This document shows, in pieces, positions 38,729 to 62,706 of a DNA stretch of 64,000 nt; the first letter of the stretch is position 1, and each line of letters begins with the position of its first letter. The notes beneath the pieces were generated by a model, which saw only the letters and a program-made list of their open reading frames with translations, did no database searches and was not told where the DNA came from. Location: positions 1-64,000 of the forward strand of contig CANRZB010000003.1 of assembly GCA_947644195.1 (NCBI GenBank). Direction: 5' to 3'. This DNA is from an uncultured Clostridium sp. (GTDB taxonomy: Bacteria; Bacillota; Clostridia; Lachnospirales; Lachnospiraceae). Made by a program: the position numbers and the translations under genes.

Positions 38729-38860
38729 ATGCTAAGCCTGGCGTTAGCCAAGTAAAAAAGCACTTGTCTAAGCTTGACGTTAGCAAAATAAATGCTAAAC
38801 CTGGCGTTAGCCAAGTAAAAGGCACATGTCTGAACTTGGTATTAGCCAAATAACTAAGCA
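38713..38860 (+). repeat. 63-bp tandem repeat growing out of the rplB 3' end
   Basis: Units start at 38713, 38776 and (partial) 38838. Each full unit contains two related half-units beginning G(G/A)CGTTAGCAAAATAA and GGCGTTAGCCAAGTAA. The first half-unit is the rplB terminus including its TAA stop. Copies differ by a few bases. Confidence 0.85.
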
Positions 38861-45272: not shown

Positions 45273-45455
45273 ATGGCAGATAAAGTTAGAGTAACATTGG
45301 TAAAGTCTACGATCGGTGCTATCCCGAAGCAACGCGCAACCGTAGAGGCTATGGGGTTGAGAAAGATCGGCAAGACGGTGGAATTGCCAAACAATGATGC
45401 CACAAAGGGCATGATTTGGCATGTAAGACACTTGGTTAAAGTAGAGGAAGTTTAA
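45273..45455 (+). CDS. rpmD: 50S ribosomal protein L30
   Basis: 60 residues. VRVTLVKSTIGAIPKQRATV, MGLRKIGKTVELPNNDATKG are canonical. It should be followed by rplO and secY; instead a hairpin and about 16.6 kb of accessory genes come next, so the ribosomal transcript now probably ends here. Confidence 0.97.
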   Translation: MADKVRVTLVKSTIGAIPKQRATVEAMGLRKIGKTVELPNNDATKGMIWHVRHLVKVEEV

Positions 45456-45473
45456 TAATAGTTTTATTCAACA

Positions 45474-45508
45474 GCCAAATGATTCAATAGCTTTTTGAAT
45501 CATTTGGC
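45474..45508 (+). terminator. Hairpin ending the spc operon after rpmD
   Basis: Perfect 13-bp stem, GCCAAATGATTCA (45474-45486) with TGAATCATTTGGC (45496-45508), followed by a short TTATTA. Confidence 0.65.
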
Positions 45509-45530
45509 TTATTAAAAGAGTAAGGAAAAG

Positions 45531-45926
45531 ATGAAGAAATTAAGAGAAATAATTTTTATTGTATTATGTTTTGTTATGTTGACAGGGACATGTCATGTTT
45601 GTGCAAAAGCGGGAAGTTATTCTGGAACATATTCTATGAAAGCAGGTTTATATTGCAAAAGAACGATCGATATAAAGTCTAAACTGACAGTGACGGTTAC
45701 ACCAAATTCATATAAAGATGGAACAAGTGGAGTTAAGTTGACGGTCTGGACGGCAAAAAAGAATTTTTTGGGTAACTGGACACCAGGTACAGAAGTTTGT
45801 TCTGGGCCATCAACTTCTCAGTTTACAAAAACATGGAAACATAAAGGAAAGATTCAAGGCTTGTATTTTATGAATCCTACACATCAGGATGTTTGGAAAG
45901 GTACATTTAAATTATCATGGGATTAG
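45531..45926 (+). CDS. Small exported protein, possibly the product of an ABC-linked peptide locus
   Basis: 131 residues, ATG with AAGGAAAAG upstream. A signal peptide (residues 1-26, LREIIFIVLCFVMLTGTCHV, cleavage near CAKAG) precedes a beta-rich, aromatic mature part of about 105 residues (YSGTYSMKAGLYCKRTIDIK, LTVWTAKKNFLGNWTPGTE, TWKHKGKIQGLYFMNPTHQD). Two mature cysteines could pair. I recognise no family. It heads a tight run of VanZ-like, membrane, FtsX-like and ABC-ATPase genes, a layout seen in bacteriocin or antimicrobial-peptide export/immunity loci. That role is inference. Confidence 0.7.
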   Translation: MKKLREIIFIVLCFVMLTGTCHVCAKAGSYSGTYSMKAGLYCKRTIDIKSKLTVTVTPNSYKDGTSGVKLTVWTAKKNFLGNWTPGTEVCSGPSTSQFTKTWKHKGKIQGLYFMNPTHQDVWKGTFKLSWD

Positions 45927-45943
45927 AAAGATAGGGGTTTGAG

Positions 45944-46528
45944 ATGGTTATTATTGATTTAGATACAATAGATTTCATGATTGTTTTTTTAAGTATTTGT
46001 ATTGCGTTATATGTGATAAAACGGAAATTCTTTTCAAGTAAAACGAAATTTTGGGTTTGCATTGCATTTGTATTTTATCTCTTAAGCATTGTTGAATATG
46101 TTATTTTTCCAATTTTTATATTTAAAGGAGATTCATTAAAAGAGATATATGGAGGAGCAGATTTTGGGATAAATTCATTTATTCAATTAATTCCTGGGAA
46201 AACTATAATGGAATATTTACAAAGTGGGAACATATATCAAATACTTGGGAATATTATTTTGTTAATTCCATTTGTACTATTTATGTTTATTTTTTTACAA
46301 GAAAAGAAACCGCTTTATATTGTTTTAGTGGGATCGATTATTTCTGCCTTGATTGAATTATTTCAATTAACAGTTGACTTATTAACAAAATATCCAAATA
46401 GGATTTGTGATGTTGATGACTTAATTTTGAATATAAGCGGTGTAATATTGGCTACAGTAATTTTTCATTTTCTTAAACGAGTAAAAGGAATCCAGAATAT
46501 ATATTATAAGTATGCAAAAATTAATTAG
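45944..46528 (+). CDS. VanZ-like membrane protein
   Basis: 194 residues, five predicted membrane segments. VanZ-family marks are present: INSFIQLIPGKTIMEYL, the helix LGNIILLIPFVLFMFIF, ALIELFQLTVDLLTKYPN and the conserved RICDVDDLILNISGVIL. VanZ proteins lower susceptibility to some cell-wall-targeting antibiotics and peptides by an unclear mechanism. Here it starts 17 nt after the exported-protein gene and overlaps the next gene by 17 nt, so it may provide self-protection within this operon. Confidence 0.85.
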   Translation: MVIIDLDTIDFMIVFLSICIALYVIKRKFFSSKTKFWVCIAFVFYLLSIVEYVIFPIFIFKGDSLKEIYGGADFGINSFIQLIPGKTIMEYLQSGNIYQILGNIILLIPFVLFMFIFLQEKKPLYIVLVGSIISALIELFQLTVDLLTKYPNRICDVDDLILNISGVILATVIFHFLKRVKGIQNIYYKYAKIN

Positions 46529-47003
46529 AAAAAACATTAAACTTTATTACAATATATTAGGTGCAAAAAAGCTATTTTTGTTTTTTGGGATTGGTGTTTT
46601 TCTATTATCTTTATATACGGATATGACATTGTGGCAGTTGATGCTGGAGTATAACCATATAGACTGGATAATGAAAACACAAAGAGGAACCATTTATATA
46701 ATTATTATGTCAGCCCTATATTTAAATGTATATTTGATATTACGGGAATTACTATATGAATGTAATCAGGAATTCCATACCATTATGATCTGTGGTAAAG
46801 TTTGGGAAGATGTTTCGAAGGAATGTTATCAAATTTTGTCAGTCTATAGTACAATACTCTTTTTTTTATCTGGAATGATATTCATGTTGGCCTTTGGACA
46901 TAAAGTATGTGGTTTGGGATTTTTGACAGTAGTCTTTAGCTACTTTATCATCATGATCTCTTTGTTTGGGAGTTGTAAAATATGTTTCAGATCGTCTGGC
47001 TAA
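46512..47003 (+). CDS. Integral membrane protein of the ABC locus, unknown family
   Basis: 163 residues with four hydrophobic segments (LFLFFGIGVFLLSLYTD, TIYIIIMSALYLNVYLILRE, STILFFLSGMIFMLAFGH, LGFLTVVFSYFIIMISLFG). It overlaps VanZ by 17 nt and the following permease by 22 nt, with no separate ribosome binding site, so translation is probably coupled. Probably a membrane partner of the transporter; no motif gives a more exact role. Confidence 0.7.
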   Translation: MQKLIRKNIKLYYNILGAKKLFLFFGIGVFLLSLYTDMTLWQLMLEYNHIDWIMKTQRGTIYIIIMSALYLNVYLILRELLYECNQEFHTIMICGKVWEDVSKECYQILSVYSTILFFLSGMIFMLAFGHKVCGLGFLTVVFSYFIIMISLFGSCKICFRSSG

Positions 47004-48079
47004 ATTTAAAAATAAATATGAAATATAATTTATTGTTTGTTTTATTATTATCAGCGATATTTTATATGCTCTGTATCTTTGGAAACGAATATATAGAAAA
47101 TTATCATCTCAAAAGTTATATGAATACGCTGGACGATTCTCTTTATTTAATACGTTCTCAAGATATATCAAGATTTGATCCCAAAATGGAAATAGGAATT
47201 ATTCAGGAATCAATTCCAAATAATGATGAAACATCAGAATCCAATGCCTGTTGGTATGTCAATGAATTTTATAGCAAAAACTTTATTCGTAATATTCGTG
47301 GTTCGGCTCTGAATTATCAAAATGGAAAGAGAGAAGTTCTGTTATATGGGAAAAAATTTGAAAAAGAATATAGGATAGGTGATGTGATTTTTTTAGAGGG
47401 AGTTTCGTACCAGGTGGTTGGTTTTATTCCATCATATCAGCCACTATTTAACTTGAAGTTTTATGGATCTGTCCAGTTATCTGGACAATCAGACCAGGAA
47501 TACCTGATGGAAGCTCGTGAGATGGTAGAACACTACCTGACTGGTCCTCTAAATGGGAATATGTATTTGGTAAATGATAATTCTTGTCAAAAAGGAGAGC
47601 AGACAGGAATGGTAGGAGGAGTGATTCATTTTACAATAGAAAAAAATTACTCTGATATAGATATGGTATCCATGCGAAATTTGAAACAGATACTTTTGGA
47701 TCAGATACAATATAATAGTAATTTCCATATGTATGGTATTATTTTATTGTTTAGTGTAACAGTTTTTATCATGGTTTCAATGTCTTTTATTCAATATAAA
47801 AATTGCAGTCAATATATGGGAGTATATGCACTTTGCGGAATGAGTCCGGGAAAATACCAGTTTCTTAGTATTATGGCATGGCTTGTGATTCTTTCAGTAG
47901 CGTATTTTTTGGATTTGATGATATATTTTGTTAGTGGCTATGGAGGCGATGAAAATGCATTTTTTTCTCCTATAAAATTTATTGGATTATTAGCAGGAGT
48001 TTCCATGATTGGTGTATATATCTTAAATTTTGCACTGCAAAAGAAAGCAATATTGGATGTGCTTAAGGTAGATTCATAG
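46982..48079 (+). CDS. FtsX/MacB-like ABC transporter permease
   Basis: 365 residues. Topology is one N-terminal helix (LLFVLLLSAIFYMLCIFGN), an extracellular domain of about 210 residues (SRFDPKMEIGIIQES, YQVVGFIPSYQPLFNLKFYG), then three C-terminal helices (MYGIILLFSVTVFIMVSM, AWLVILSVAYFLDLMIYFV, FIGLLAGVSMIGVYILNFAL). That is the FtsX/MacB-type layout. Together with the ATPase 47 nt downstream it should form a mechanotransmission ABC system that moves or senses a peptide outside the membrane. Sequence similarity to FtsX is weak; topology carries the call. Confidence 0.72.
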   Translation: MFQIVWLNLKINMKYNLLFVLLLSAIFYMLCIFGNEYIENYHLKSYMNTLDDSLYLIRSQDISRFDPKMEIGIIQESIPNNDETSESNACWYVNEFYSKNFIRNIRGSALNYQNGKREVLLYGKKFEKEYRIGDVIFLEGVSYQVVGFIPSYQPLFNLKFYGSVQLSGQSDQEYLMEAREMVEHYLTGPLNGNMYLVNDNSCQKGEQTGMVGGVIHFTIEKNYSDIDMVSMRNLKQILLDQIQYNSNFHMYGIILLFSVTVFIMVSMSFIQYKNCSQYMGVYALCGMSPGKYQFLSIMAWLVILSVAYFLDLMIYFVSGYGGDENAFFSPIKFIGLLAGVSMIGVYILNFALQKKAILDVLKVDS

Positions 48080-48126
48080 AGATAAGATGTGTCTTGATTG
48101 GATCAAAGTTGGAAATGGAGACAGAG

Positions 48127-48792
48127 ATGAGTTATATAGAATTGCATCACATAGGGAAAAGATATGGAACAAAGAAAGTTTTAGATGGTTTAACCCTCTC
48201 TGTGGAGAAGGGGGAGATGGTCGCGATTATGGGCAGGACAGGGTGTGGCAAATCTACACTTTTGCATATTATGTCCGGTATTGAATCCATGGATTCCGGT
48301 AAATATATCTTTGATGGCGAAGATTTGAGCAGGGCTGGAAAGGCTGCTATGGCAAATCTGAGAAATAAAAAAATCGGATATATTTTGCAGTCTTATGCTT
48401 TGATTCCAGAGATGACAGCATATGAGAATATTATTTTACCACTACAGATGCGAAAAATAATTAGAGATGATACGTATTCTATTGTTGAGAAAATAGCCCA
48501 TTGGTTGGAAATCACGGAATTATTAGAGAATAAAGCACGAGATTTGTCAGGAGGAGAGAAACAAAGAGTGGCGATAGCCAGGGCTTTGGTTATAAGACCA
48601 AAAGTGATATTGGCAGATGAGCCTACAGGAGCGTTGGATGAGGAAAGTACGACAGAATTGATGCAGTTGTTATGCTCGTTACGGAAAGAGGGAAATACTA
48701 TTATTTTGGTTACTCATAATCGTGATGTGGCAGGATATTGTGATAAAACCTATTTCTTACAAGAGGGAAAGATACTGGAAATAGGAGAATAA
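48127..48792 (+). CDS. ABC transporter ATP-binding protein (MacB/LolD type)
   Basis: 221 residues from ATG 48127, which has GGAG 6 nt upstream; the frame opens earlier. Walker A MGRTGCGKSTLLHIMSG, Q-loop ILQSYALIPEMTAYEN, signature DLSGGEKQRVAIARAL, Walker B VILADEPTGALDEE and the switch histidine in LVTHN are all intact. This sequence class pairs with FtsX-like permeases, matching the gene before it. Last gene of the 45531-48792 operon; the next gene is convergent and no clear terminator lies in the 92-nt gap. Confidence 0.92.
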   Translation: MSYIELHHIGKRYGTKKVLDGLTLSVEKGEMVAIMGRTGCGKSTLLHIMSGIESMDSGKYIFDGEDLSRAGKAAMANLRNKKIGYILQSYALIPEMTAYENIILPLQMRKIIRDDTYSIVEKIAHWLEITELLENKARDLSGGEKQRVAIARALVIRPKVILADEPTGALDEESTTELMQLLCSLRKEGNTIILVTHNRDVAGYCDKTYFLQEGKILEIGE

Positions 48793-48884
48793 TGACATGA
48801 CAAAGAGATGCTCCTTAAAAGGGAACAAAGAGAATATATTTATAGGAAAAAAATAGAGGTACGATTATTCAATTGCGTTAAACG

Positions 48885-51800
48885 CTATATATCCTCCATG
48901 GCAGAGTTTTCTTCCTCCTCCATTATAGCTTCACATTCCCGGCAGAGCTGAATCCATTGTTCTACATAGGTATTTTCAGGATCATAGTCAGGGTGGTTTC
49001 GTATTAGCTGGTAATAGCGGTCGGCGTTTCCGCTTTGCTCCAGGAGACGGGAGCAATGGTATAAATATAAAAGGTTAGTAAATCCTTTTTCTTCTTTTTG
49101 ATCTAGTTGTTCCATCAACTTTTTGGTACAATACAAATTGTCAGAATTGATATTTCCGTAGAAAAATTCTAAAATGGCTAAAGGTCCAATGGTATGATCA
49201 TGATACAGCAGAGATTGGTGCAAAATATATCGGGCCTGATCAGGAACATGCTGTGATAGTTCCATATGAGCGTATGGGAGATAGAGTAGTGATTGTGGAG
49301 TTAGTTCTATCCCTTTCGCATATATCCATCTTGCTGAGTTTTCTGTTTCTATATTGCCAATCTGATTCTCCTGTGTCTCCAATTGAGCCCATGCAAGCCA
49401 GACTGGACTATCAACGGTGTAGTTGAGACAAGCTTGACGGCAGATCCATCTAACCGTATTTTCTGTATGGTAATCGCCGATCTGGTTCTGCTGTAATTCC
49501 AAATTGACCCATGCGAGCCAGACTGTGCTATCAGCAGCATAGTTGAGGCAAGCTTGACGGCAGATCCACCTAGCCGTATTCGCTGTACAGTAATTACCGA
49601 TTTGATTTAATTTTGTTTCTAATTGAATCCATGCTAACCAGACTGTGCTATCAGCAGCATAATCGAGACAAGCTTGACAGCAGATCCATCTAGCCGTATT
49701 CGCTGTAAGGTAATCTCCAATTTGATTCTGTTGTGTTTCCAAATGAGTCCATGCCAACCAAATCGAACTATTTACGGAATGATTTAAGCAGGCTTCTCGG
49801 CAGATCCATCTGGCTGTATTTTCTATATGATAATTACCAATCTGATCCTGTTCTTTCTCTAAGAGAATCCATGCTAACCAGACAGAACTATCGACAGAAT
49901 GGTTAAGACAGGCTTCCCGGCAAATCCATCTGGCGGTATTCTCTGTATGGTAATCTCCAATCCGATCTTGTTCTTTCTCTAATCGAATCCATGCTAACCA
50001 GACAGAACTATTGACAGAATGGTTGCGGCAGGCTTCCCGGCAAATCCATCTAGCCGTATTCTCTGTGCAGTAATCGCCAATCTGATTTAAATTTACTTCT
50101 AATTGAATCCATGCTAACCAGACAGAACTGTCAGCGGAGTACTTGAGACAGGCTTCCCGGCAAATCCATCTGGCGGTATTTTCCATCTGGTAATTTCCGA
50201 TCTGGTTGTATTTTTTCTCCAGGTGAATCCAATGTAACCAAACTGAGCTGTTGGAATCATCTTTCATGCATGCAGTTTTTAAAATCCAGGCTGGTGAATA
50301 AAGCTCGTCTATATCCCAGTTAGCCCCGTTTTTAAATAATAGATTGCACCATTTTATCAAATTAGCAGGAGTAATATAGTTTCTATCAAAGCTAAGTTTA
50401 TAGTATAACATTTGGATCTCATCATTTTTGAAATGTAAGAGTAAGGAATTGATCATTTTTGGCGGTTCCAGTTTAAATTCATCTAGTATTCTGTTAATTA
50501 AAAATTTCTGCATGGTTAGGCTTGTTTGGGACAAAGCGCCAGAAAGCAGGATAATAGCATTTCGACTGTTATATTTGAAGCGGGCAAAAGATTCCTGATA
50601 ACTCTTAAAATGATAAGTCAACAGATTTTCTAAAATTCTGTCTACGTCATTCAAAGATAACAAGCCCGAATCATAAAAAAGTTCATTATAAAACAATTTG
50701 GATATAATTTCGTGTCTGGTTTGATAGATTTGTCCATTAAGAGAGACCTCTCGGCTTAATGCTTTCATTCCCTCTTTTTTAGAAATTTTCAAATCATTAC
50801 ATATATAGTTTAATTGGGATTTATAAAATTTTACTCCATAATATTCCGATAAAACAATATGAGCAAGTAAAAGGGTAGATTGTTTTGAGCGTTTAGCTAA
50901 ATTTTTGACGATTTCACTTGCAATTTCTTCCAGGGAATCTTTGTTATTTATAACCATTAGCATTGCTGCATATAAAAAACCGTAAGAGTTATTTTGAAAT
51001 ATTTCTTTAATTTCTTTTTTAGTGAGGGCAGTATGGACATGGTTTAACACACAGTCTGCAAAATGCCAGCACTCTTTAGGAGTTAACGTAGGGAGAGGAA
51101 TTTCGGTAATATCCCGATCAGAAACATCACAGGATAGTTTTAATAGATTCCATTCGTTTTGGCGTGCACCCAAAATTAGTGTTATATTATTTGAAACAAC
51201 AACATTCAGAAAATTTTTAAATTTCGTATTATCAGGAGGATTATCCAATACGAAAACAGCATGTTCAGGTACATTGTCTGGAAGGCGAAGCTTACCAAAC
51301 CCTTGATAATAAAAAACAGGTATCTTATCTAAAATCAGTTTTGCACATAATTGTTGTAAAATCGTGGTCTTTCCTTCACCTCCGGCTCCGACCAATACAT
51401 AAATACCACCATTATGGGCATGTTTATATAATTGATCGGTAATATCACGATGGACGATTTGATCCGAAAAAGCCAGATTCCATCGACAAGGAGCTCCCTG
51501 TAAAAACTTTTTGATATGAAACTTTTCCAATGGATATTTTTTCTTCTCTAGTATTATTTCATTTGTTTCCCAACAGCTGCTTTCCTGTTTTGATATGGTG
51601 ATTTTCATTGGTTTTTCCGCAGTATTGCGCAATGCAAAATTATCCGTACCGTCAGGTTGTAATTCCGCCTGATCTTTGGGATCCCATTTCATATATTCCA
51701 GATCAACTCGTCCAGTATCCTCATCCCATTGCTGCCAAATAATACCAAAATCTGAGTAGGTATCATGTTCATCAGTAGATCCACGGTAGGCTACAATGTT

Positions 51801-52571
51801 TGGGATCGTAACGGTAGAAAATTTGCTTTTTAAGAAAATTAGATTTTCTTCCCTTTGTGAATTCCGATGATGGCGGTCTCCACATAGATAGGCATGAATG
51901 TTTTCCTGTAAAAACATTGCAGATATCTGGGTCTGATGTTCTGGTAACAGGTCGTAAAAGCTATTATGTGCAATTGCTATTGCAGGCAGGCTGCCGTTTC
52001 GTAATTGGAGTCGAATGTTTTCAGAAGTGGCAGAAAGAGTATCTGCCATCTGGTTGTCTTTACATGTGCCGTCTGCAATTAAAGCGGTGTTTAAATGCAG
52101 GATATTTAATTTGTTTCGCCAGGTGCGGACATGGACGCTTGCAGGTATCGCATCCGCTTGGGGATAGATTTTTAATGACTGTATGAATTGGGTATAAGGT
52201 TCAAAATAGGTAAGCAGTTGTTCCAGTCCATCTTGCAGCATAGTGGGTTCAGATTTAATAGCCTTGATCATAAAGGCTCTATTTTTTTGCTGGGCATCTG
52301 GAACAAATATGTCATGATTTCCCGGAACTACAAAAACATCATTTTGGGGTTCTATTTCCATGGCACCAATTAGCTGGGTAAGAAATATTTTTGCATATGT
52401 ATAGTCATTTTGTTTAAAATTGTGGAAATCACCCGTGACAATTAATAATTTTTGCCCCAGGGAAATGCCGTTCAGCTTATCATGGACAGAATTTAATATA
52501 GCTTCTTTCATGTTGTTCCACTGTGGATCAGTAACCAGATGTAAGTCGGAGATGTGTAAAATATGAATCAT
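48885..52571 (-). CDS. Metallophosphoesterase - STAND-like NTPase - HAT/TPR repeat protein (candidate defence protein)
   Basis: 1228 residues, ATG 52571 with AGAGG 7 nt upstream. Residues 1-290 are a calcineurin-like phosphoesterase: HISDLHL, VTGDFHN (about 46), VPGNHDIF (about 82), AHNSF (about 201) and CGDRHHRN (about 229; the usual GHxH reads GDRHH). Residues about 370-560 are a P-loop NTPase with Walker A VGAGGEGKTTILQQL (about 392), Walker B AVFVLDNPPD and a LILGARQNEW motif as in STAND proteins. A helical linker follows. From about 765 to 1085 are nine 40-residue HAT/TPR-like repeats, seven nearly identical (ENTARWICREACLNHSVDSS, VWLAW, QIGDY), encoded by a 120-bp DNA tandem repeat. The effector-switch-sensor order resembles NTPase conflict systems: repeats sense, the NTPase oligomerises, the phosphoesterase attacks nucleic acid or nucleotides. 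Function is inferred. Confidence 0.85.
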   Translation of the reverse strand: MIHILHISDLHLVTDPQWNNMKEAILNSVHDKLNGISLGQKLLIVTGDFHNFKQNDYTYAKIFLTQLIGAMEIEPQNDVFVVPGNHDIFVPDAQQKNRAFMIKAIKSEPTMLQDGLEQLLTYFEPYTQFIQSLKIYPQADAIPASVHVRTWRNKLNILHLNTALIADGTCKDNQMADTLSATSENIRLQLRNGSLPAIAIAHNSFYDLLPEHQTQISAMFLQENIHAYLCGDRHHRNSQREENLIFLKSKFSTVTIPNIVAYRGSTDEHDTYSDFGIIWQQWDEDTGRVDLEYMKWDPKDQAELQPDGTDNFALRNTAEKPMKITISKQESSCWETNEIILEKKKYPLEKFHIKKFLQGAPCRWNLAFSDQIVHRDITDQLYKHAHNGGIYVLVGAGGEGKTTILQQLCAKLILDKIPVFYYQGFGKLRLPDNVPEHAVFVLDNPPDNTKFKNFLNVVVSNNITLILGARQNEWNLLKLSCDVSDRDITEIPLPTLTPKECWHFADCVLNHVHTALTKKEIKEIFQNNSYGFLYAAMLMVINNKDSLEEIASEIVKNLAKRSKQSTLLLAHIVLSEYYGVKFYKSQLNYICNDLKISKKEGMKALSREVSLNGQIYQTRHEIISKLFYNELFYDSGLLSLNDVDRILENLLTYHFKSYQESFARFKYNSRNAIILLSGALSQTSLTMQKFLINRILDEFKLEPPKMINSLLLHFKNDEIQMLYYKLSFDRNYITPANLIKWCNLLFKNGANWDIDELYSPAWILKTACMKDDSNSSVWLHWIHLEKKYNQIGNYQMENTARWICREACLKYSADSSVWLAWIQLEVNLNQIGDYCTENTARWICREACRNHSVNSSVWLAWIRLEKEQDRIGDYHTENTARWICREACLNHSVDSSVWLAWILLEKEQDQIGNYHIENTARWICREACLNHSVNSSIWLAWTHLETQQNQIGDYLTANTARWICCQACLDYAADSTVWLAWIQLETKLNQIGNYCTANTARWICRQACLNYAADSTVWLAWVNLELQQNQIGDYHTENTVRWICRQACLNYTVDSPVWLAWAQLETQENQIGNIETENSARWIYAKGIELTPQSLLYLPYAHMELSQHVPDQARYILHQSLLYHDHTIGPLAILEFFYGNINSDNLYCTKKLMEQLDQKEEKGFTNLLYLYHCSRLLEQSGNADRYYQLIRNHPDYDPENTYVEQWIQLCRECEAIMEEEENSAMEDI
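49310..50290 (-). repeat. 120-bp in-frame tandem repeat array
   Basis: About eight 120-bp units recur in strict register; the segment CAGATCCATCT or its variant CAGATCCACCT recurs at 49441, 49561, 49681, with variants at 49801, 49921, 50041 and 50161. Central units are far more alike than the edge units, suggesting recent duplication or gene conversion. Confidence 0.9.
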
Positions 52572-52659
52572 TTGACTACCTCTTTTCTGTATTTATCAAA
52601 TATCGTACATTGAAACGGATCTATCAGGTTAATTGCTTGTAAATTTTTACTGCATTTTT

Positions 52660-53397
52660 TTAGTTAGTACAGCTAACGATGATGCGGTTTAAATATTGAT
52701 CCCGAATTAATTTTCGGTATTTGCGGCTGATGGGAACACTTTCCCCCGAATGTAGGATGATATTAGCATCCGAAAAATAATGGATAGCTAGCAAATTAAT
52801 CAAAATATCTCTACGGCACAGGAAAAAGTTATGGTCTTCCAGAAGGCCATTCCATTGACGGAGGGTACCCCGTGTCGTTATCGTATTTTTCGGAAAATGA
52901 AAACATAGCTCCTTTGTTTTGCTGTTGATGACATCAATATACTGGATCTCGTTGACCATAATCGGGGTTTCTTGTCCTGCGTGATCTATTACGCTGTATA
53001 AGATTTGCTGTTCTTCAAATTCCGCGATAATCTGAGTGAGTATATCCATAATCATTCCCTCCGTAATCGGTTTTTGGAGATAATGAAAGGGATGCACGGA
53101 AAAACTATTTTGCATGTATTTTAAGGAATCACTAACAAAGATAATTTTGGTTTTACGGTCTCCCTTATTTCTAATTTTTATGGCAGTTTCAATACCATTA
53201 TGTCCCGGCATTTCTATGTCCAGAAACAATATGTGATATTTACCAGGTTTTTGATATTCTTTCAGCAAATGATTTCCGTCAGAATAAGTGTCTACAGTTA
53301 TATTATGGTTTCTGTCAAACTGGAATTGCCTTATCATTCTGGTTAATGTTTGTATCTCTTCTGGTTGATTATCACAAATTGCAATATCTAGTTTCAT
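52660..53397 (-). CDS. LytTR-family response regulator
   Basis: 245 residues; ATG 53397 is chosen (AAGGA 6 nt upstream). Residues 1-125 are a receiver domain with the acidic pair CDN, phospho-acceptor D60 in LFLDIEMPGHNGIE, and the lysine in LQKPITEG. Residues about 140-240 are a LytTR DNA-binding domain (IDVINSKTKELCFHFPKNTI, LCRRDILINLLAIHYFSD, PISRKYRKLIRDQYL). This is the AgrA/ComE-like class that controls peptide-signalling operons. No histidine kinase is encoded in the window. The metallophosphoesterase-NTPase gene follows 88 nt downstream in the same direction. Confidence 0.92.
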   Translation of the reverse strand: MKLDIAICDNQPEEIQTLTRMIRQFQFDRNHNITVDTYSDGNHLLKEYQKPGKYHILFLDIEMPGHNGIETAIKIRNKGDRKTKIIFVSDSLKYMQNSFSVHPFHYLQKPITEGMIMDILTQIIAEFEEQQILYSVIDHAGQETPIMVNEIQYIDVINSKTKELCFHFPKNTITTRGTLRQWNGLLEDHNFFLCRRDILINLLAIHYFSDANIILHSGESVPISRKYRKLIRDQYLNRIIVSCTN

Positions 53398-53633
53398 GAA
53401 TGGTCCTTCTTTCTTTGTGTTCATTGTAACAAACCTGTTTATTGTAGGATAGATAGAGTTCCAGAACTTCTGGTGATGCCATATCTTTCATGGTATGCTC
53501 ATAGGAAATTTTAGTATCCCATATCATTATATCATAAAAATACTACATGGGAATACTAAATTAAAAAAGAATTATTGTGTCAAAAAACCAGGATACACTA
53601 AACAGATTGTTTCTTTTGTAATATATAAGAGAA

Positions 53634-53706
53634 TTTTACCTTTTACCCCCGTTTTTTTACCACTTATCTGCTGGCTTCGTCATAACGCCTATTTTTATGA
53701 TATAAT
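53634..53706 (+). promoter_or_regulatory. Promoter with TTTTACC direct repeats, candidate LytTR target
   Basis: TATAAT at 53701-53706 lacks a good -35. Upstream are three TTTTACC copies (53634, 53641, 53655); the first and third are 21 bp apart, the period typical of LytTR binding sites. It would drive the broken exported-peptide gene. A separate imperfect hairpin, TTTAGTATCCCAT / ATGGGAATACTAAA, lies at about 53508-53558. Confidence 0.5.
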
Positions 53707-53788
53707 CTGGTTTGATAGAATTTGCAAAGGATATCAAGTATTTTTTGAAACAAAAAACAAGGAAAGACACACAAGAAAGGAAAAAGAA

Positions 53789-54383
53789 ATGAGAAGAAAA
53801 TGTAAATGGAAGAATAGGGTGTTGGCAGGTCTAATAGCTGTTGCTTTAGTATCCGGTGTATTCTCCTATGTGCCGAAAGTTCAAGCAAAGAATAATCCAT
53901 ATGCTAGTGTACTGACACATTTATAGTTTGATAAAACTACAAAGGATATTTATACATCGGCAAGGCGGATGAACGAGTCGTAGCGGTGGCTACGTCGAGT
54001 GAATCCAACGTAGCCCGATGGTGTGAATAGCCGAGTAGTTTTGCTAATTATAAATGTGTCAGTGCACTAATCCTTGGGGAATTCTGTATCGGACACCGGA
54101 GTTTCAGAACAAATATGGTCGGCTTTGGTGGCAGAAACTGGGTAAACAGCAAGGTGGTAATATTTCTATTGATAGTTACTATACTTATGGAAGTGCTGCC
54201 AGTGTAGAACACATATATAAACGTAAAGGAAAAATTATCAAAGCAAAGAAAACGGATTCTTCTATGTATGGGGATAGCAATGCGGAATGTTTTGAAGGAA
54301 AGTCTGGTGAGGGCTTGTCAACAAAGTTTCATGCTGGAGCATATGGTATTAATTTTAACAAAGAAGTCATTTATAAAAAATAA
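53789..54383 (+). pseudogene. Exported small protein gene interrupted by a miniature element
   Basis: The gene begins at ATG 53789 (AAGGAAAAAG upstream) with a signal peptide (WKNRVLAGLIAVALVSGVF, cleavage near VQAK) and is cut after codon 39 by the element at 53907-54067, giving a stop at 53926. Removing the element and one copy of the TA duplication joins GCT-AAT in frame and restores a 143-residue protein. Its mature part reads NPYANPWGILYRTPEFQNKY, GRLWWQKLGKQQGGNISIDS, then YGSAASVEHIYKRKGK and a C-terminus FNKEVIYKK. Size and layout suggest a secreted bacteriocin-like or signalling protein; I do not recognise the family. Non-functional as read unless the element excises. Confidence 0.82.
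53907..54067. mobile_element. 161-bp miniature inverted-repeat element with TA target duplication
   Basis: Terminal repeats GTGTACTGACACATTTATA (left) and, on the other strand, GTGCACTGACACATTTATA (right), continuing to a shared AAAACTAC. The whole element folds as one long hairpin with inner stems CATCGG/CCGATG, GGAT/ATCC and CGTAGC/GCTACG. TA flanks both ends (53905-53906, 54068-54069), the target used by Tc1/mariner-IS630 transposases. No coding capacity. Confidence 0.88.
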
Positions 54384-54477
54384 TGCAATTAATCTTTAAT
54401 ATTAGATGGTCTATTCCCATTTTGTTAATGATAAAACAAGACCTATAATCATGAGATGGATTAAGTAATTAATAATG

Positions 54478-54544
54478 ATGTACAGATACATTGATAATTA
54501 GAAACCTACTGTTCTATTTATCGAATATCAATGTGTCTGTACAT
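54478..54544. repeat. 67-bp hairpin related to the miniature element
   Basis: ATGTACAGATACATTGATA pairs with TATCAATGTGTCTGTACAT (one mismatch) around a 29-nt loop. The arm resembles the miniature element's end (TGTAC-T/A-GACACATT). The 54384-54607 gap contains only this. Confidence 0.6.
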
Positions 54545-54607
54545 TTGGATGAAAATGTACAGCGACTTTTGTATCATAGAATCATACTGAGAAAGAAGTG
54601 AAATAAA

Positions 54608-55852
54608 GTGAGAAGTAAAAAAAATAGGAAGAAAAAAATACCAGGAACAGTCATTGGAATCATAATTTTCTGTATTTTTGCAGTTAGCTATGTTTTCTAT
54701 GTATATATGGATGAACGCGGAATTTCAAATAAGAAAATGATTGAAACATTTGGAAAAAATGCAGTTTGGAAATATGGTGTATTATTGGAAGGCGACCGTG
54801 TGCTTTCTTCAGAGGGATTGTTGTATTATACCAATATGTCCAAAAAGATGACAGTACCTTTATGTACCAGAGCAGGCTGTGAGCATAATACGGAGAACTG
54901 TACCGCCTGCTACTTGAGTAATAATGATTTTATATATCCATACCAGGGGAAAATGTATTTGGGATGCAAGGCAGACAAGCATCTGGAATTTTATCGGACT
55001 AATTTGGATGGCTCTGAGCGTGAAAAAATTGCTACTTATTCCTTTGATGATATCATTAGTGAAACACAATACTTGCAAGTGGATTCAAAGGTTTATATTG
55101 CCGTGGCAATAGAACCAGCTAGCCGGATGGAGATAACAGATGATGGAAACTGCTATGATGTGCCAGTATATTGGGAGTTGTTATGTTTTGATTTAGATAC
55201 AACAGAATATAAGAAAATTGGTAAGTTAGAAGGAGAATATTATGGGTATAGTATATATCTCCGATATTTGGAAAGTAATCGGATATACTACGAGTTTGAA
55301 GGTCGAACTTTGCCTTGGGAAGATATGTACCATCCCGAAACTGGAAAATTACTCAAACCGGAGCTTCAAGAAAATGAAATTAATGGTGTTGCAAGTATAA
55401 ATCTGGATACGGGGCAAATTCAGCTAGAAGATCGTTATGAGACTGGAGATTATGTTGGAACAGAAGCAGGCATTTATTATTTTTTGGAATATCAGAAAGA
55501 TTATATTTTGTCGGGAGATATTCGTTTGGAGCAAAATGAAATGGAGCAGAAAAAGATACATATCAAAAACTTAGAACAAAAAGAAGGAATTCTCTATCTT
55601 TTACACGATCATTTTGTATTTAATGAGGAAGGAGAAGATGAACGAAAAGGAAGAATCAGTTTTTTTGACAGATCTGGTAACCTGGAGTTTGTGATTGAGA
55701 ATGTTGACAAGTATATTATTGGGGAATGGGGATCTTACTATATAGTATGTTCTTTTGTCCATCCACAAGGTATGAGTGGTATGGGAAGCTATATTAAGAA
55801 AAAAGACATTAAGCAGCTACAGACGAAAGCAGTGGGGATAATAGATGACTAA
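54608..55852 (+). CDS. Membrane-anchored CxxxxCxH-motif protein, copy 1
   Basis: 414 residues with a GTG start (weak AGAAGTG site). Basic N-terminus and one anchor helix (residues 12-31, TVIGIIIFCIFAVSYVFYVY). The ectodomain carries the motif PLCTRAGCEHNTENCTACYL (about residues 81-100), a cysteine/histidine pattern common in clostridial envelope proteins. Propeller-like segments follow (MYLGCKADKHLEFYRTNLDG, GVASINLDTGQIQLEDRYE). It ends with SYIKKKDIKQLQTKAVGIID. Function unknown. The next gene is a close paralogue 26 nt downstream, so this is a recent tandem duplication, followed by an ABC transporter. Confidence 0.78.
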   Translation: MRSKKNRKKKIPGTVIGIIIFCIFAVSYVFYVYMDERGISNKKMIETFGKNAVWKYGVLLEGDRVLSSEGLLYYTNMSKKMTVPLCTRAGCEHNTENCTACYLSNNDFIYPYQGKMYLGCKADKHLEFYRTNLDGSEREKIATYSFDDIISETQYLQVDSKVYIAVAIEPASRMEITDDGNCYDVPVYWELLCFDLDTTEYKKIGKLEGEYYGYSIYLRYLESNRIYYEFEGRTLPWEDMYHPETGKLLKPELQENEINGVASINLDTGQIQLEDRYETGDYVGTEAGIYYFLEYQKDYILSGDIRLEQNEMEQKKIHIKNLEQKEGILYLLHDHFVFNEEGEDERKGRISFFDRSGNLEFVIENVDKYIIGEWGSYYIVCSFVHPQGMSGMGSYIKKKDIKQLQTKAVGIIDD

Positions 55853-55878
55853 GTAGTTGAGTTCAGAGGAGTTACATA

Positions 55879-57114
55879 ATGAGGAAAGGTATTAGGGTTA
55901 ATAAAATAAAAATCGTGGGTATCATCATCTGCTGTGTTTTAGCAGCCAGTTACATTCTATATGTATATATTATGGAACAGAAAGTCACGGAAATAGAAAC
56001 GATTGATACATTTGGAGAAAATGCAGTCTGGAAATATGATGTACTGCTGGATGGAGATCAAGTGCTATCTTCTAATGGCATGCTCTATTATACTAATATG
56101 TCTAAAAAAATAACGGTGCCCCTATGTACCAGGGTAGGCTGCGATCATAATACGGAAGAATGTACTGCTTTTTATATGTGTAATAATGACTTTATGTATC
56201 CGTATCAGGGAAAAATGTATTTGGGATGTATGGCACAGAAAGACTTGGAATTTTTTCGCACTAATCTGGATGGTTCTGAGCGAGAAAAAATTGCGACCTA
56301 TTCTTTGGGAGATGTTATTAGCTACACGGAATATATGCTTGTAGAATCCAGATTGTATATTGCTGTGGCAGTGGAGGATACCAGTCAAATGAAAATAACA
56401 GAGGAAGGAAGATGTTCTGATGTGCCGATACATTGGGAGCTTCTTTGTTTTGATCTGGAAGTAGGGAAATATGAGAAAATTGCTACTTTGGGAGAAGAGT
56501 ACTATCAACACAATTTGTATTTCAGAAATCTGGAAGATAATAGGCTTTACTATGAGTTTGAAGGACAAAAGATTCCATTGGAGGAGATGTATGATCAGGA
56601 AAGTGGAGAGCTTAAAGATGCGAAATATAGAGATTTAGAGATTGAGGGTGTGGCGAGTATAGATCTGGATACAGGAAAGATTCAGATAGAAGATCAGTAT
56701 GTAACACGGGATTATATTGGGAGTGAGGAAGGGACTTCCTATTTTCTGGAATACCAGCAGGATCATATCTTGTCGGGAGATATCCGTTTGGAGCGAAATG
56801 GAATAGCGCAAGGGAAGATACATATAAAAGATTTAGAACAAAAACAAGGCGTTCTTTGTCTTTTGCAGGATCATTTTGTATTTAATGAGGAGGGCGAAGA
56901 CGAAAAAGAAGGAAGAATTAGTTTTTTTGACAGATCTGGCAACTTGGAGTTTGAGATAGAAAATGTTGATAATTATGTGATTGGAGAATGGGGGCCATAT
57001 TATATATTATGTTCTTACGTTATCCCGCCAGGTGATTGTCATATGGGAAGCTATATTAAGAAAAAAGATATAAAGCAGCTACAGACGAAAGCAGTGGGAA
57101 TCATAGATGGCTAA
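55879..57114 (+). CDS. Membrane-anchored CxxxxCxH-motif protein, copy 2
   Basis: 411 residues, ATG with AGAGGAG 7 nt upstream, a better site than copy 1. Same plan: anchor helix (VGIIICCVLAASYILYVYI), PLCTRVGCDHNTEECTAFYM, MYLGCMAQKDLEFFRTNLDG, and an almost identical last 100 residues (LQDHFVFNEEGEDEKEGRIS, SYIKKKDIKQLQTKAVGIID). Divergence is greatest in the middle, suggesting the copies have begun to specialise. Placed directly before an ABC ATPase/permease pair, they could be sensors or substrate-binding partners on the outer membrane face; unproven. Confidence 0.78.
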   Translation: MRKGIRVNKIKIVGIIICCVLAASYILYVYIMEQKVTEIETIDTFGENAVWKYDVLLDGDQVLSSNGMLYYTNMSKKITVPLCTRVGCDHNTEECTAFYMCNNDFMYPYQGKMYLGCMAQKDLEFFRTNLDGSEREKIATYSLGDVISYTEYMLVESRLYIAVAVEDTSQMKITEEGRCSDVPIHWELLCFDLEVGKYEKIATLGEEYYQHNLYFRNLEDNRLYYEFEGQKIPLEEMYDQESGELKDAKYRDLEIEGVASIDLDTGKIQIEDQYVTRDYIGSEEGTSYFLEYQQDHILSGDIRLERNGIAQGKIHIKDLEQKQGVLCLLQDHFVFNEEGEDEKEGRISFFDRSGNLEFEIENVDNYVIGEWGPYYILCSYVIPPGDCHMGSYIKKKDIKQLQTKAVGIIDG

Positions 57115-57161
57115 AAAGCAGCTGAAAACTAAGGCAGTGAATTTATGGGAGGATGCTGACT

Positions 57162-58049
57162 ATGAGTGAATTGAGAGCAGCGAATCTGACGAAAGTATAT
57201 CAAAACGGGAAAAAGGCGTTGGATGATTTTTCTTTTACTTTTACACAGGGAATATATGGGATTCTTGGGCCAAATGGCGCAGGAAAATCGACGTTGATTC
57301 GTCTTTTGACGGATCAGTTTCCGCCGACTAGTGGCACCGTGTATTCCCATGGTATTGATGTCCGGGAATATGGACAGGAGTATCGGGGGATTTTGGGGTA
57401 TATGCCGCAACAGCAGGAGCTATATCCAGAGTTTACCCTGCAACGATTTTTGTATTATATGGCAGCATTAAAAGGACTGGATAAAAAAACAGCTTCCGAA
57501 CAGATTCCTGATTTGATGAAACGGGTAAATTTATTTGATTATCGGAGACAACGGCTGGGAACCTTTTCCGGAGGGATGCAGCAGCGTGCCTTGATCGCAC
57601 AGGCATTATTGGGAGAACCGGAGATCTTAATCCTGGATGAACCGACGGCGGGGTTGGATCCTCGGGAAAGGATACGAATTCGGAATTTGGTTTCAGAGAT
57701 TTCTTTTCATCGTATCGTTTTAATTGCTACCCATGTGGTATCGGATGTTGAATTTATTGCCCGGGAAATTTTGTTGATGCAGCAGGGGCGGATTGCGGCA
57801 CATCAGACTCCGGTAGCATTGTGCGAGAAAATTCGTGGAAAAGTATATGAGGCGCAGTGCACAGAAGAGGAGTGGAGAGAGATTAGCAATCAATATACCA
57901 TAACTAATTTATCTCAAAATAAGGGAAAGGTACAGGTAAGACTGTTGTCGGAGCAGAAACCGGAAGAAATCCGCGTGCAAGCGGTTGTTCCAACTTTGGA
58001 AGATGTATATCTGTATTATTTTGGTGAGGAGTCTGCCTATGAATCTTAA
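57162..58049 (+). CDS. ABC transporter ATP-binding protein
   Basis: 295 residues; ATG 57162 is taken because GGGAGG lies 9 nt before it, while the earlier ATG 57153 abuts the site. Walker A GILGPNGAGKSTLIRLL, Q-loop GYMPQQQELYPEFT, signature TFSGGMQQRALIAQAL, Walker B EILILDEPTAGLDPRE and H-switch LIATHVV are intact. The class (CcmA/NatA-like) typically pairs with large ABC-2 permeases. Overlaps the permease gene by 11 nt. Confidence 0.93.
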   Translation: MSELRAANLTKVYQNGKKALDDFSFTFTQGIYGILGPNGAGKSTLIRLLTDQFPPTSGTVYSHGIDVREYGQEYRGILGYMPQQQELYPEFTLQRFLYYMAALKGLDKKTASEQIPDLMKRVNLFDYRRQRLGTFSGGMQQRALIAQALLGEPEILILDEPTAGLDPRERIRIRNLVSEISFHRIVLIATHVVSDVEFIAREILLMQQGRIAAHQTPVALCEKIRGKVYEAQCTEEEWREISNQYTITNLSQNKGKVQVRLLSEQKPEEIRVQAVVPTLEDVYLYYFGEESAYES

Positions 58050-60195
58050 CGGTCTGGAATTACAAAAATTAATTCGAAATCGGCGGTTGCTATTGACGAT
58101 TGCAGCTATTTTTTTCTTAAATCTGGTTACTACATATTATATTTACCAGGATCAAGGTGCCGGCAGGGTTACGTATTCTAGCGCTTCCTACAGGGCGGTC
58201 TATCGGGATTTGCAGGATATGAGTGCAGAGCAGGCATATTCGTTTTTGGAGAGTTATTTTAATGAGACAATGCAGGCAGACGGAGAAAAGGGCCAGACGA
58301 AGCTGCGATATACCGGGGAAATGGCTTCAGAGAGCCGCCTGATTTCAGAGATTTTGGGCAGTTTGGATCAGTGTATTCATTATGAGGATTATCTGGATCG
58401 TTTGGAAGAAGGACGAGGAATCTTAGAGGAGGCGGGTTTGTTGCAGATTGCCAGTCCTTTTCAACAGAGAAATCTCGCAAAACAAAACCAGGATAAGGAG
58501 ATCATGAGGGGGAGGGACATAAAATATGGGCCTTCTAAGGGAATAGCTTTATGGGGAGATACGGTAACAACGGATTTTTTTATTCTACTGCTGTTGCTGT
58601 TGTTGGTGGTACAGTTGGTAACAAGGGAGCGGGAAACCGGGCAGATCCAGTTGTACCAAGTTACCAGAAAAGGGCAGATTCATTTGATTTTTGCTAAGAT
58701 TTTTGCTGCGTTAATTTGTATGGTCATTATTAGTGTTGTTTTCTGGATGAGCAATTTGATTATGGCAGGATCTCTCTATGGATGGGGAGATCTCCATCGT
58801 TTGATTCAGTCTGTGGATCCCTATCGGGATTGTCTGAGGCCGTTCACAGTGTTGCAATTTATTGGGCTATTCTTTCTATTTAAGCTTTTTATTTATACTT
58901 GCCTGATTTTGTTTCTATTTTTGCTTTCTATAATAGGTAGGCAGGTGCAGATCATGTATTTTATTGTGATAGCCGTCAGTTTAGTGGAGGGGGGTCTCTA
59001 TTTCTCAATTCATGAAACCAGCCGATGGGTTACCTGGAAATATCTCAATCTCTTTGCCTTCTTAAAAACAGGTAATGTGATTGGAATATATCGAAATATT
59101 AATATTGCCAATATGCCCTGTCCCTATTTCTATGTTTTTCTATTTGCCACGGTTTTGTCATCTATTCTGTTTGTATTTGTTTCTGCAGTTTTTTTCAGCC
59201 GTCAGGCGGAGCAGGAAACAATGGGGCGGAAGTCATGGTATGATCGTCTGCCATGGATGGATCGGAGGGAACGCTCTTTGTCACTTTTACATCAGGAAAG
59301 TAATAAGCTGTGTTTCTATGGGAAATTTTTCTATGTGCTGTTGGGATATTTGCTATTTGTAGTTATGACCTATCAGCCGGCATCCAAAGCCTTTTATATT
59401 GCACCAGATCCTTATTATGATCTCTATATTGATTATCTGAAAGGACCAATTTCTGAGAAAACACAGGCGTGGATTGCCAAAGAAGACCAGAGATTTGCCA
59501 TGTTAGAGGAAAGATATACCAATGGAGAGATTACGGAAGAATACTGGGAATCTCAGATGCGGCCTTATTCGGCATTTGAGAGACTTCGGGATATTACCAC
59601 GGTCCATTTGGAGCAAACGAAGGGGGAATATCTGCATACGGCGGGATATCAATTATTGACCGGGGATCAGATATCTAATCAGAAAGATATTAAATTGGCT
59701 CTATTGGCAGTGGTTGTCATGTTATATCCTTTGGCCTATTTATTTGGGATTGATAATCAGCGGCGCATGGTGCCGTTATTACAGGCAACGGTAAATGGAA
59801 GGCGCCGGGTATTGGGCATCAGAATCTTTCTTGGGACGATGGTGGTAACCTCAGTTTACTTGCTGACGTACGTTCCCTTTTATTATAGCGTCTTGTCGGA
59901 ATTTGGAACGGAATCTATCCATGCCCCAGCCTGTAGTTTGCTGCATTTGGGAAAGATACCACATGGAATTAGTTTACAGCAGTATTTAATTCTGGTGGCA
60001 GTTTTACGTTATATCGGATATCTCCTTCTGATGGCTGCGATGATCTGGATTTCGGGCAGAAGTAACAGCGTGATTGTGGGATGTGTGATTGGAATCACAA
60101 TTTTTGTGCTTCCGCTGATTTTTGCGTATTTACAGATTCCTGGATTTACTTATGTTTTATGGAATCCGCTGCTTTTGGGAAATGTCTTTGGATAG
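58039..60195 (+). CDS. Large ABC-2-type membrane permease
   Basis: 718 residues from ATG 58039, with GAGGAG 7 nt upstream. About twelve hydrophobic segments. The N-terminal half has one helix, an extracellular region (about 40-170) and a helix cluster including FILLLLLLLVVQLVTRERET, typical of ABC-2 permeases. The C-terminal half repeats the plan (YVLLGYLLFVVMTYQ, long loop, LALLAVVVMLYPLAYLFGID, LLLMAAMIWISG). The double-length form resembles exporters linked to bacteriocin or lipid-active peptide loci. Partner of the ATPase before it; substrate unknown. Confidence 0.82.
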   Translation: MNLNGLELQKLIRNRRLLLTIAAIFFLNLVTTYYIYQDQGAGRVTYSSASYRAVYRDLQDMSAEQAYSFLESYFNETMQADGEKGQTKLRYTGEMASESRLISEILGSLDQCIHYEDYLDRLEEGRGILEEAGLLQIASPFQQRNLAKQNQDKEIMRGRDIKYGPSKGIALWGDTVTTDFFILLLLLLLVVQLVTRERETGQIQLYQVTRKGQIHLIFAKIFAALICMVIISVVFWMSNLIMAGSLYGWGDLHRLIQSVDPYRDCLRPFTVLQFIGLFFLFKLFIYTCLILFLFLLSIIGRQVQIMYFIVIAVSLVEGGLYFSIHETSRWVTWKYLNLFAFLKTGNVIGIYRNINIANMPCPYFYVFLFATVLSSILFVFVSAVFFSRQAEQETMGRKSWYDRLPWMDRRERSLSLLHQESNKLCFYGKFFYVLLGYLLFVVMTYQPASKAFYIAPDPYYDLYIDYLKGPISEKTQAWIAKEDQRFAMLEERYTNGEITEEYWESQMRPYSAFERLRDITTVHLEQTKGEYLHTAGYQLLTGDQISNQKDIKLALLAVVVMLYPLAYLFGIDNQRRMVPLLQATVNGRRRVLGIRIFLGTMVVTSVYLLTYVPFYYSVLSEFGTESIHAPACSLLHLGKIPHGISLQQYLILVAVLRYIGYLLLMAAMIWISGRSNSVIVGCVIGITIFVLPLIFAYLQIPGFTYVLWNPLLLGNVFG

Positions 60196-60199
60196 CAAG

Positions 60200-60229
60200 G
60201 GAGCTTTCTAAGGTTACTTAGAAAGCTCC
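60200..60229 (+). terminator. Hairpin after the ABC permease
   Basis: Perfect 13-bp stem GGAGCTTTCTAAG (60200-60212) with CTTAGAAAGCTCC (60217-60229) and a 4-nt loop. No T run follows, so it may act as an mRNA end-stabiliser rather than a classic terminator. Confidence 0.55.
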
Positions 60230-60288
60230 ACGGTTGAGGTTATATAAGAAAATTAGTTGTTGCTTACTTTCAAATGCTGTGACGTTGC

Positions 60289-61866: not shown

Positions 61867-62265
61867 AGTGTTCTCCCTCTCTTTCTGTGCAATGATCTAC
61901 ATTCTGCGTAAAGAAACCAATATGACTCGAAATGGTTCCATCACATTGCTCTATGATTGTGTTCGTATGAATTAGATTGTATCAAAAAAGCTAGGAAGAG
62001 ACAAGTCGCTTTTCTTATTTTAATAGGAAAAAATAAGAACGGGCAAAAAATAGCAAAAAAATACTTGCTTTTCCATTGGAATTATTGTACAATAGCATAT
62101 TGTAGCGAGGATATTAGACAGTCCTATCTGTCTGAGGGAAGTTGGTCTCCATCTTCTGGCGCAGTTGCAGCAGGCGATATATCATGTTTCGGCTTCTGTA
62201 TCGACGCCGTCCGTTAGTGTATGGCTGGCGGTTTTGCCGACAGTCAATAGAAATAGGAGGTTATT
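61867..62265 (+). other. Leader and promoter region of rplO-secY
   Basis: No gene. It contains the rplO promoter (listed separately) and about 170 nt of leader with small hairpins (GACAG/CTGTC near 62118; CTGGCGG/GCCGACAG near 62223) that could be the target of ribosomal protein feedback. Confidence 0.45.
62065..62093 (+). promoter_or_regulatory. Separate promoter for rplO-secY
   Basis: TTGCTT (62065-62070), 17-nt spacer, TACAAT (62088-62093). It replaces the transcription normally supplied by the upstream spc operon. Confidence 0.7.
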
Positions 62266-62706
62266 ATGAATTTATCAACATTACGCCCGGCAAAGGGGGC
62301 AAAGCAGAGCGACAATTTCAGAAGAGGTCGCGGTCATGGTTCAGGAAATGGTAAGACAGCAGGTAAGGGACATAAAGGTCAGAAGGCTCGTTCCGGTGCG
62401 CCACGTCCTGGTTTTGAAGGTGGTCAGATGCCACTTTACAGACGTATTCCAAAGAGAGGATTTACCAACATCAATTCCAAAGAAATCATTGCGATTAATG
62501 TGGACAAGTTAGATGTATTTAACGATGGTGATGTGGTAACAGTGGCAGCATTACAGGAAAAAGGTATTGTAAATAATCCTAAGGATGGCGTTAAGATACT
62601 TGGAAATGGAGAATTAACTAAGAAGCTGACAGTCCAGGTGAATGCATTCAGTAAGAGTGCTGCAGAGAAGATTGAAGCTCTTGGTGGAAAAGCAGAGGTG
62701 ATCTAG
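62266..62706 (+). CDS. rplO: 50S ribosomal protein L15
   Basis: 146 residues, ATG after [66 protein letters not shown] are canonical. Normally placed directly after rpmD; here it lies 16.8 kb away and has its own promoter. secY follows after one base. Confidence 0.98.

Follow-up and report, generated by a model that had tools for sequence, protein, structure and literature searches.

The 64,000-nucleotide stretch analysed here (the window; positions 1–64,000 of contig CANRZB010000003.1 from an uncultured Clostridium sp. of the Lachnospiraceae) raises the question of what a bacterium does with a protein that joins a metallophosphoesterase, a STAND-type NTPase and a tandem-repeat domain. An initial annotation had read these parts as one 1228-residue protein and as a candidate diversifying immune sensor. 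The gene (48885–52571) is indeed a single open reading frame (ORF), carried on the minus strand, which the annotation had left unstated, and a genome-wide search found it to be the sole match in its own 3.44-Mb, 82-contig genome. As argued below, the product is probably a single-protein, NLR-like bacterial immune receptor that combines effector, switch and sensor against phage or other invaders, a layout resembling that of animal and fungal immune receptors.

The annotated parts and their order were borne out by profile searches and predicted fold. The N-terminal region has the Metallophos domain of calcineurin-like phosphoesterases (residues 3–234; 38.5 bits against a Pfam cut-off of 21.5). 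It is followed by a STAND NTPase domain (nSTAND_NTPase5, PF25199; residues 355–477) that scores 57.8 bits, above the curated cut-off of 34, and has conserved P-loop residues. The score with nSTAND3 (20.3 bits) is under the cut-off of that model (27.2). In profiles and predicted fold, the enzyme domain lies on one flank of the NTPase and the repeat solenoid on the other. This supports the effector-switch-sensor architecture that had been proposed, with the NTPase part of the structural model being weak; the flanking enzyme would be the effector and the solenoid the sensor. The model of residues 1–760 had a mean predicted local distance difference test (pLDDT) score of 65.7 and a predicted template modelling (pTM) score of 0.43, with pLDDT under 50 at residues 512–638, the expected place of the winged-helix/helical subdomains that follow the NTPase. 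Fold comparisons, which covered a re-alignment of Foldseek's top 1000 chains only, matched this model to YydB and SMPDL3A over residues 1–320 and to Avs5 over residues 330–750. The top match of the phosphoesterase part was the YydB model, followed by the nucleotide phosphodiesterase SMPDL3A, sphingomyelinase relatives and purple acid phosphatases. The NTPase part resembles solved STAND proteins in predicted fold. Neither phmmer with the whole protein nor profiles of residues 1–760 and of the phosphoesterase retrieved a solved relative within thresholds. A profile of residues 735–1228 gave three weak matches to heptosyltransferases (E 0.024–0.025), located in the C-terminal cap, and PADLOC returned only matches with E values of 0.0045 or worse for the protein.

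Residues 735–1228 are predicted as a regular alpha-solenoid (mean pLDDT 87.8, pTM 0.75). The best fold matches are HAT-type solenoids, with top chains from spliceosomes that we take to be HAT proteins; PRPF6 and Crooked neck are presumably such spliceosomal HAT-repeat proteins. The matches also include mRNA 3'-end proteins and the HAT domain of Rna14, named so by its structure title. The TPRs of OGT were near in Z score (19.3) but had a root-mean-square deviation of 19.7. Pfam gave no HAT family for the repeats at E ≤ 10, with three repeat domains scanned and with HMMER filters that drop weak matches. Hence, the HAT assignment rests on fold, and the HAT/TPR designation of the initial annotation is retained as a HAT-type solenoid that lacks a HAT sequence profile in that scan. 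Unlike Rna14 and CstF77, the window protein is bacterial, is fused to an immune-type NTPase, has an exact 40-residue period and has no Pfam HAT match. To our knowledge, the HAT-repeat fold is otherwise met in eukaryotic RNA-processing proteins.

The architecture of the N-terminal half is also that of DS-8, a system reported in 2026 to be anti-phage (PMC13092281), which has an N-terminal metallophosphatase and a central P-loop NTPase in one protein. That report describes the DS-8 phosphatase as homologous to SMPDL3A, which is among the best fold matches of the window protein, and the loss of defence when phosphatase or NTPase residues are mutated. The NCBIfam model of DS-8 (NF053861, DS8_antiphage) aligned to residues 6–416 when residues 1–760 were the query (E 4e-21), with 74.5 bits against an equivalog cut-off of 790; the score in the genome search was 70.2 bits. 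Five other family members scored 42–69 bits, and the aligned stretch reached the Walker A motif in four and covered only 6–244 in the fifth (L007). DS-8 was missing from the NCBIfam list for the whole 1228-residue protein, an absence that we tentatively attribute to search filters reacting to the repeats. When at most two candidates were scored per genome, 18 of 299 genomes of the bacterial family matched NF053861 at 1e-8, none above the cut-off and three of them near full-length at 693–750 bits, and 2 of 14 control genomes matched below the cut-off. The three near-full-length proteins carry GHEH as the last metal motif, whereas the window protein has GDRH. Furthermore, one of the three exceeds the nSTAND4 cut-off, a second falls slightly short of the nSTAND3 cut-off and the third shows neither domain, in contrast to the nSTAND5 domain of the window protein, whose repeats lie outside the NF053861 match. 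Judged from its sequence, the window protein is a relative of DS-8 in architecture and, by score, no member.

Among known systems, DS-8 is the nearest. The DS-9A phosphoesterase model (NF053862) matches residues 4–102 (1.8e-10) with 40.3 bits against a cut-off of 420, and DS-9 is encoded by two genes and includes a HAD phosphatase. The AVAST STAND proteins Avs5 and Avs4 are also comparable; Avs5 has a SIR2 effector and a predicted nSTAND3 (PMC12931631), where the window protein has a phosphoesterase and nSTAND5. YydB of Bacillus subtilis (9a6c_B, titled integrative model) is a phosphoesterase chain of 481 residues whose model includes YydD as a separate partner, unlike the single-protein arrangement in the window, and a literature search found no functional study of YydB. 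We also noted a phosphoesterase on a Priestia plasmid (L051, 5878–9505) near a DUF2326 protein, a pair that we presume may be like YydB-YydD. Another locus (L014, 4827–7895 and 3–2621) has a phosphoesterase/NB-ARC protein (111.4 bits with the DS-8 model) near a SIR2 protein and apparent IS66 transposase genes.

The initial annotation considered the last metal motif (GDRHH for GHxH) unusual. We aligned 19 phosphoesterases, leaving out L008 as a near copy of L006 and 4 of the 16 wanted loci (L094, L101, L111 and L112) that yielded no sequence by the motif rule. Seven of the eight tested metal-motif residues are identical in all 19 proteins. The first histidine of the last motif is conserved in 12 of the 19 and replaced by aspartate in seven (six family members, including the window protein, and L011); all five homologues of the window gene in the alignment have the aspartate. 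These seven proteins group in a single clade (with 1.000 support in FastTree and 100 in IQ-TREE), so the substitution is no oddity of the window protein. We did not adopt the idea of a dead enzyme: the change marks a clade, and the remaining motif residues are kept. Aspartate can bind metal, and phosphoesterase activity may therefore still be possible despite the altered motif. The L011 phosphoesterase adjoins genes with double-GTPase (101.8 bits) and GASH (64 bits) domains, which suggests that this Asp-motif class of enzymes is used in another conflict-type system. Calcineurin-like phosphoesterases are also listed in PMC8195603 among the N-terminal domains of bacterial TRADD-N proteins taken as likely effectors. 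Two further phosphoesterases were observed: one with the same Asp motif adjoins double-GTPase and GASH genes, with recombinase-like genes farther along (L015, 4538–7974), and one is fused with a GHKL-type ATPase domain in another possible conflict architecture (L114, 1864–5388).

Other proteins with the same NTPase family have defence effectors. Of 200 genomes in the bacterial family, 8 (that of the window among them) have a PF25199 match above the cut-off, compared with 0 of 14 controls. Matches below the cut-off were found in 192 of the 200 and 11 of the 14 genomes and were dropped as unspecific. Seven further regions from five PF25199 genomes (L058 and L060 left out) contained SIR2 in three cases (once in the preceding gene), HNH in one (just above its cut-off) and the Cap4 nuclease in one (below its cut-off). 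The remaining two had no recognised effector, and in the Pfam scan the PF25199 score itself fell slightly short of the cut-off for two of the seven region proteins. The presence of SIR2, HNH or Cap4-like parts in five of the seven regions indicates that the phosphoesterase occupies the position of known defence effectors in this NTPase family.

In the repeat array, a 39-residue unit that starts at residue 760 leads into seven full units of exactly 40 residues, with starts at 799, 839 and so on to 1039; a diverged unit follows at 1079. Tandem Repeats Finder scored the array 741 at a period of 120 nt and 827 at 240 nt, which excludes chance. The units had been described as near-identical, which is too strong for mean pairwise identities of 69% in amino acids (0.55–0.85) and 74% in nucleotides. 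Similarly, cysteines occupy both positions of the annotated CREAC motif in all seven repeats, but the literal motif is present in four (CRQAC in two and CCQAC in one) and its first cysteine is private to the window. Among 33 full repeats from seven arrays, the second cysteine (C10) is found in all 33, and the first (position 6) in 7/7 window repeats and 0/26 repeats of the six other arrays, where F, Y or L stands instead. This resembles the outcome of a private change spreading along the window array. No variation occurs at W4, I5, C10, W20, A22, W23, E27 and G34 in the five larger arrays, and inspection by eye extends this to all 33 repeats.

The repeats evolve in concert, homogenised within each gene and without a signal of array position. 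DNA identity among the repeats of the window, L004 and L005 is 0.758 within genes versus 0.627 between genes, a value reached by 0 of 2000 label shuffles, and the window repeats form one clade (support 0.991; bootstrap 99). Repeats at the same and at different places are equally identical across genes for window-L004 (0.602/0.602), with 0.625/0.625 and 0.668/0.656 for the other pairs. L006 and L008 are 98.0% identical in the core, and their four comparable same-place repeats are 88, 96, 100 and 87% identical; the second L008 repeat equals the first L006 repeat. Both contigs end inside the array, and L008 is titled a metagenome-assembled genome (MAG), so that this difference is provisional; L006 is a 277-kb contig not titled MAG. 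Concerted evolution has also been reported for the repeats of the fungal NLR/STAND genes het-d, het-e and het-r (PMC4986451; PMC2873952), which are much alike within a gene, as in the window family. In the first of these sources, positive selection is reported at few positions of the fungal repeats, which are of WD, ANK or TPR type; in the window family, the repeats are of HAT type and counting gave no sign of positive selection.

The full-type gene is rare and patchy in its genus and family. With the window included in each count, 3 of 61 relatives gave a match (in one case to the C-terminal end only), as did 2 of 28 genomes of the genus. The bacterial family gave 2 of 397, where the second match is a phosphoesterase without the remaining parts, and the order 2 of 392, where the second match is weak; at most two candidates were scored per genome in the family and order counts. 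A scan of a species collection gave seven loci, which are six genes and a 22-residue stub; L007, whose contig agrees with that of the genus match L002 in length (78,094) and in its first letters, was counted with L002 as one gene. Eight independent genes have the array (window, L003–L009). Two are complete; of the others, five stop within the array where their contig ends and one is interrupted there by a run of N, so such receptors may be under-counted. Among 299 genomes of the bacterial family, repeats of the same type matched only in the window's own. A match on a Rhodococcus plasmid (26% identity, residues 802–1068) is at a place without a listed gene in an incomplete gene table. Hand reading of the readable loci showed that neighbour genes vary from locus to locus and that no housekeeping operon is shared. 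With the NTPase also above a STAND cut-off, neither of the two outcomes that the initial annotation had named as refuting its proposal was observed.

By analogy with the STAND, Avs and DS-8 families, we infer a ligand-released ATP switch that oligomerises, activates the phosphoesterase and leads to abortive infection; an anti-phage function is suggested by the same analogy. At rest, the HAT-type solenoid would keep the STAND NTPase closed. Binding of a phage or plasmid product to the solenoid would release the NTPase, which would then bind ATP and allow the proteins to assemble as an oligomer or filament. The assembly would switch on the N-terminal phosphoesterase, whose destruction of a nucleotide or phosphodiester substrate would stop the infection, probably by abortive infection. 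Recombination among the repeats would overwrite units within the gene and could reshape the recognition surface. The same switch and effector could instead serve a STAND receptor for kin or mobile elements, with a ligand from a rival strain or plasmid, as for fungal het-d, het-e and het-r. We consider this unlikely. It would agree with the concerted repeat evolution, which is reported in the fungal studies (PMC4986451; PMC2873952), and with the fact that PADLOC recognised no phage-defence genes among ten chosen neighbours. However, bacteria do not fuse cells, which leaves the route of the ligand unclear, and the tested architectural relatives DS-8 (PMC13092281) and Avs5 (PMC12931631) are reported to act on phage. 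A cellular regulator that acts on nucleotide second messengers or RNA in normal physiology, and whose solenoid would scaffold RNA-processing partners in the way known from eukaryotes, is quite improbable. The spliceosomal and mRNA 3'-end fold matches speak for it, as does a LytTR response regulator gene that precedes the receptor gene on its strand by 88 nt, a gap in which no terminator-like site was found, but the rarity and patchiness of the gene in its genus and family and the differing neighbours at the loci read by hand speak against it.

What the array contributes to the preferred immune receptor is less certain, and two results weigh against its diversification. Selection on the repeats appears purifying overall by counting, with ratios of nonsynonymous to synonymous differences (pN/pS) of 0.25–0.36 in the six arrays with variation and 0.25–0.30 in the five larger ones. 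In addition, both complete arrays known (window and L004) have seven units. Positive selection on the sensor was tested in the same way and was unsupported, the highest per-site pN against mean pS being 1.0, at repeat position 18. Positions 11, 14, 16, 18, 21, 25, 28, 37 and 38 belong to the more variable part of the repeat. Thus, of the label "diversifying" there remain the homogenisation per gene and the differences between two close relatives, set against purifying selection and equal unit numbers. A neutral pattern has a substantial chance of being the full explanation of the array: recombination homogenises tandem DNA repeats, the L006/L008 differences would be partly assembly, and the array would be uninformative on changing recognition whatever the function of the protein. 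The pN/pS of the five larger arrays, the seven units of both complete ones, and the MAG title and contig ends noted above for L006 and L008 fit this explanation. On the other hand, the arrays of the window and L004 are homogenised and were read through without a gap, and L006 comes from a long contig that is not titled MAG. Variability in helix A also falls on one helical face (reached by 357 of 20000 shuffles), although this test is weak because burial alone gives such a pattern in any amphipathic helix; helix B has no face preference (7790 of 20000).

A bolder version of the immune receptor reading, which we put forward only tentatively, is that the window protein represents the first bacterial immune receptor with a HAT-repeat sensor, its specificity renewed by inter-repeat recombination as in fungal het STAND genes, and that it fires an Asp-motif class of phosphoesterase shared with a GTPase conflict system. 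The family offers a handle on the DS-8 kind of receptor, with a conserved enzyme and switch and a sensor of 40-residue units that homogenise per gene. If the arrays set specificity, recognition by a bacterial NLR-like protein would be directly testable by array swaps and would have its counterpart in the fungal receptors that recognise non-self through repeats.

Table 1. Coordinates of the receptor gene, its parts and the insertion that carries it.
Feature	Position in window	Strand	Details
Whole gene: metallophosphoesterase - STAND NTPase - HAT-type repeat protein, 1228 aa	48885..52571	-	Single ORF
N-terminal calcineurin-like metallophosphoesterase, aa 1-316	51624..52571	-	Motif residues D9-x-H11, G47-D48, G84-N85-H86-D87, H202, G231-D232-R-H234
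STAND-type NTPase with the helical part that comes after it, about aa 331-760	50292..51581	-	Walker A GAGGEGKTT, Walker B-like FVLDNPPD, sensor-like LILGAR, invariant YQTRH
Leading 39-residue repeat, aa 760-798	50178..50294	-	
Seven 40-residue HAT-type repeats, aa 799-1078	49338..50177	-	Helices of 11 and 13 residues per unit in predicted fold
Final, diverged repeat unit plus conserved helical cap at the C-terminus, aa 1079-1228	48888..49337	-	
Insertion carrying the gene, 16.8 kb, between rpmD (L30) and rplO (L15)	45456..62265	.	

The gene lies in an insertion (Table 1) that splits the spc ribosomal operon between rpmD (45273–45455) and rplO (62266–62706), which is followed by secY. Among 22 other genomes of the genus with an S5 match, L15 is 19–816 bases after L30 in 17, by tblastn coordinates, and absent from the stretch read after L30 in five. 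One of the five has L15 about 5.7 kb on, and the contigs of three end after 5.5–16.6 kb without L15. Four of the five (L042 was left out) were compared with the window by tblastn at 1e-5 and had no cargo in common with it beyond ABC proteins. The short gap or different cargo in other genomes points to the rpmD-rplO site as a variable place in the genus. From 46000 to 61999, the G+C content is 0.28–0.38 in 11 of 16 kilobase windows and 0.41–0.44 in the other five; it is 0.42–0.45 in the upstream operon. PADLOC recognised no defence genes among the ten chosen neighbours (seven without a match and three with matches read as generic), leaving a defence-island setting unsupported. The LytTR response regulator (52660–53424) is directly upstream of the receptor gene and, as no promoter-like site was found in the gap either, co-transcription of the two genes is possible.

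The insertion also carries two adjacent paralogous genes (54608–55852 and 55879–57114), about 80% identical in DNA over 300-nt stretches and followed by an ABC transporter; a Pfam scan of the first paralogue gave no match. Farther along, a minus-strand gene (60289–61866) encodes leucine-rich repeats and is repeat-rich with 63-nt spacing. Arrays of 63 and 39 nt at 1–822 look like a second leucine-rich-repeat protein cut by the window start, and a short tandem repeat (38713–38853) lies at the end of and past the L2 gene, inside the ribosomal operon.

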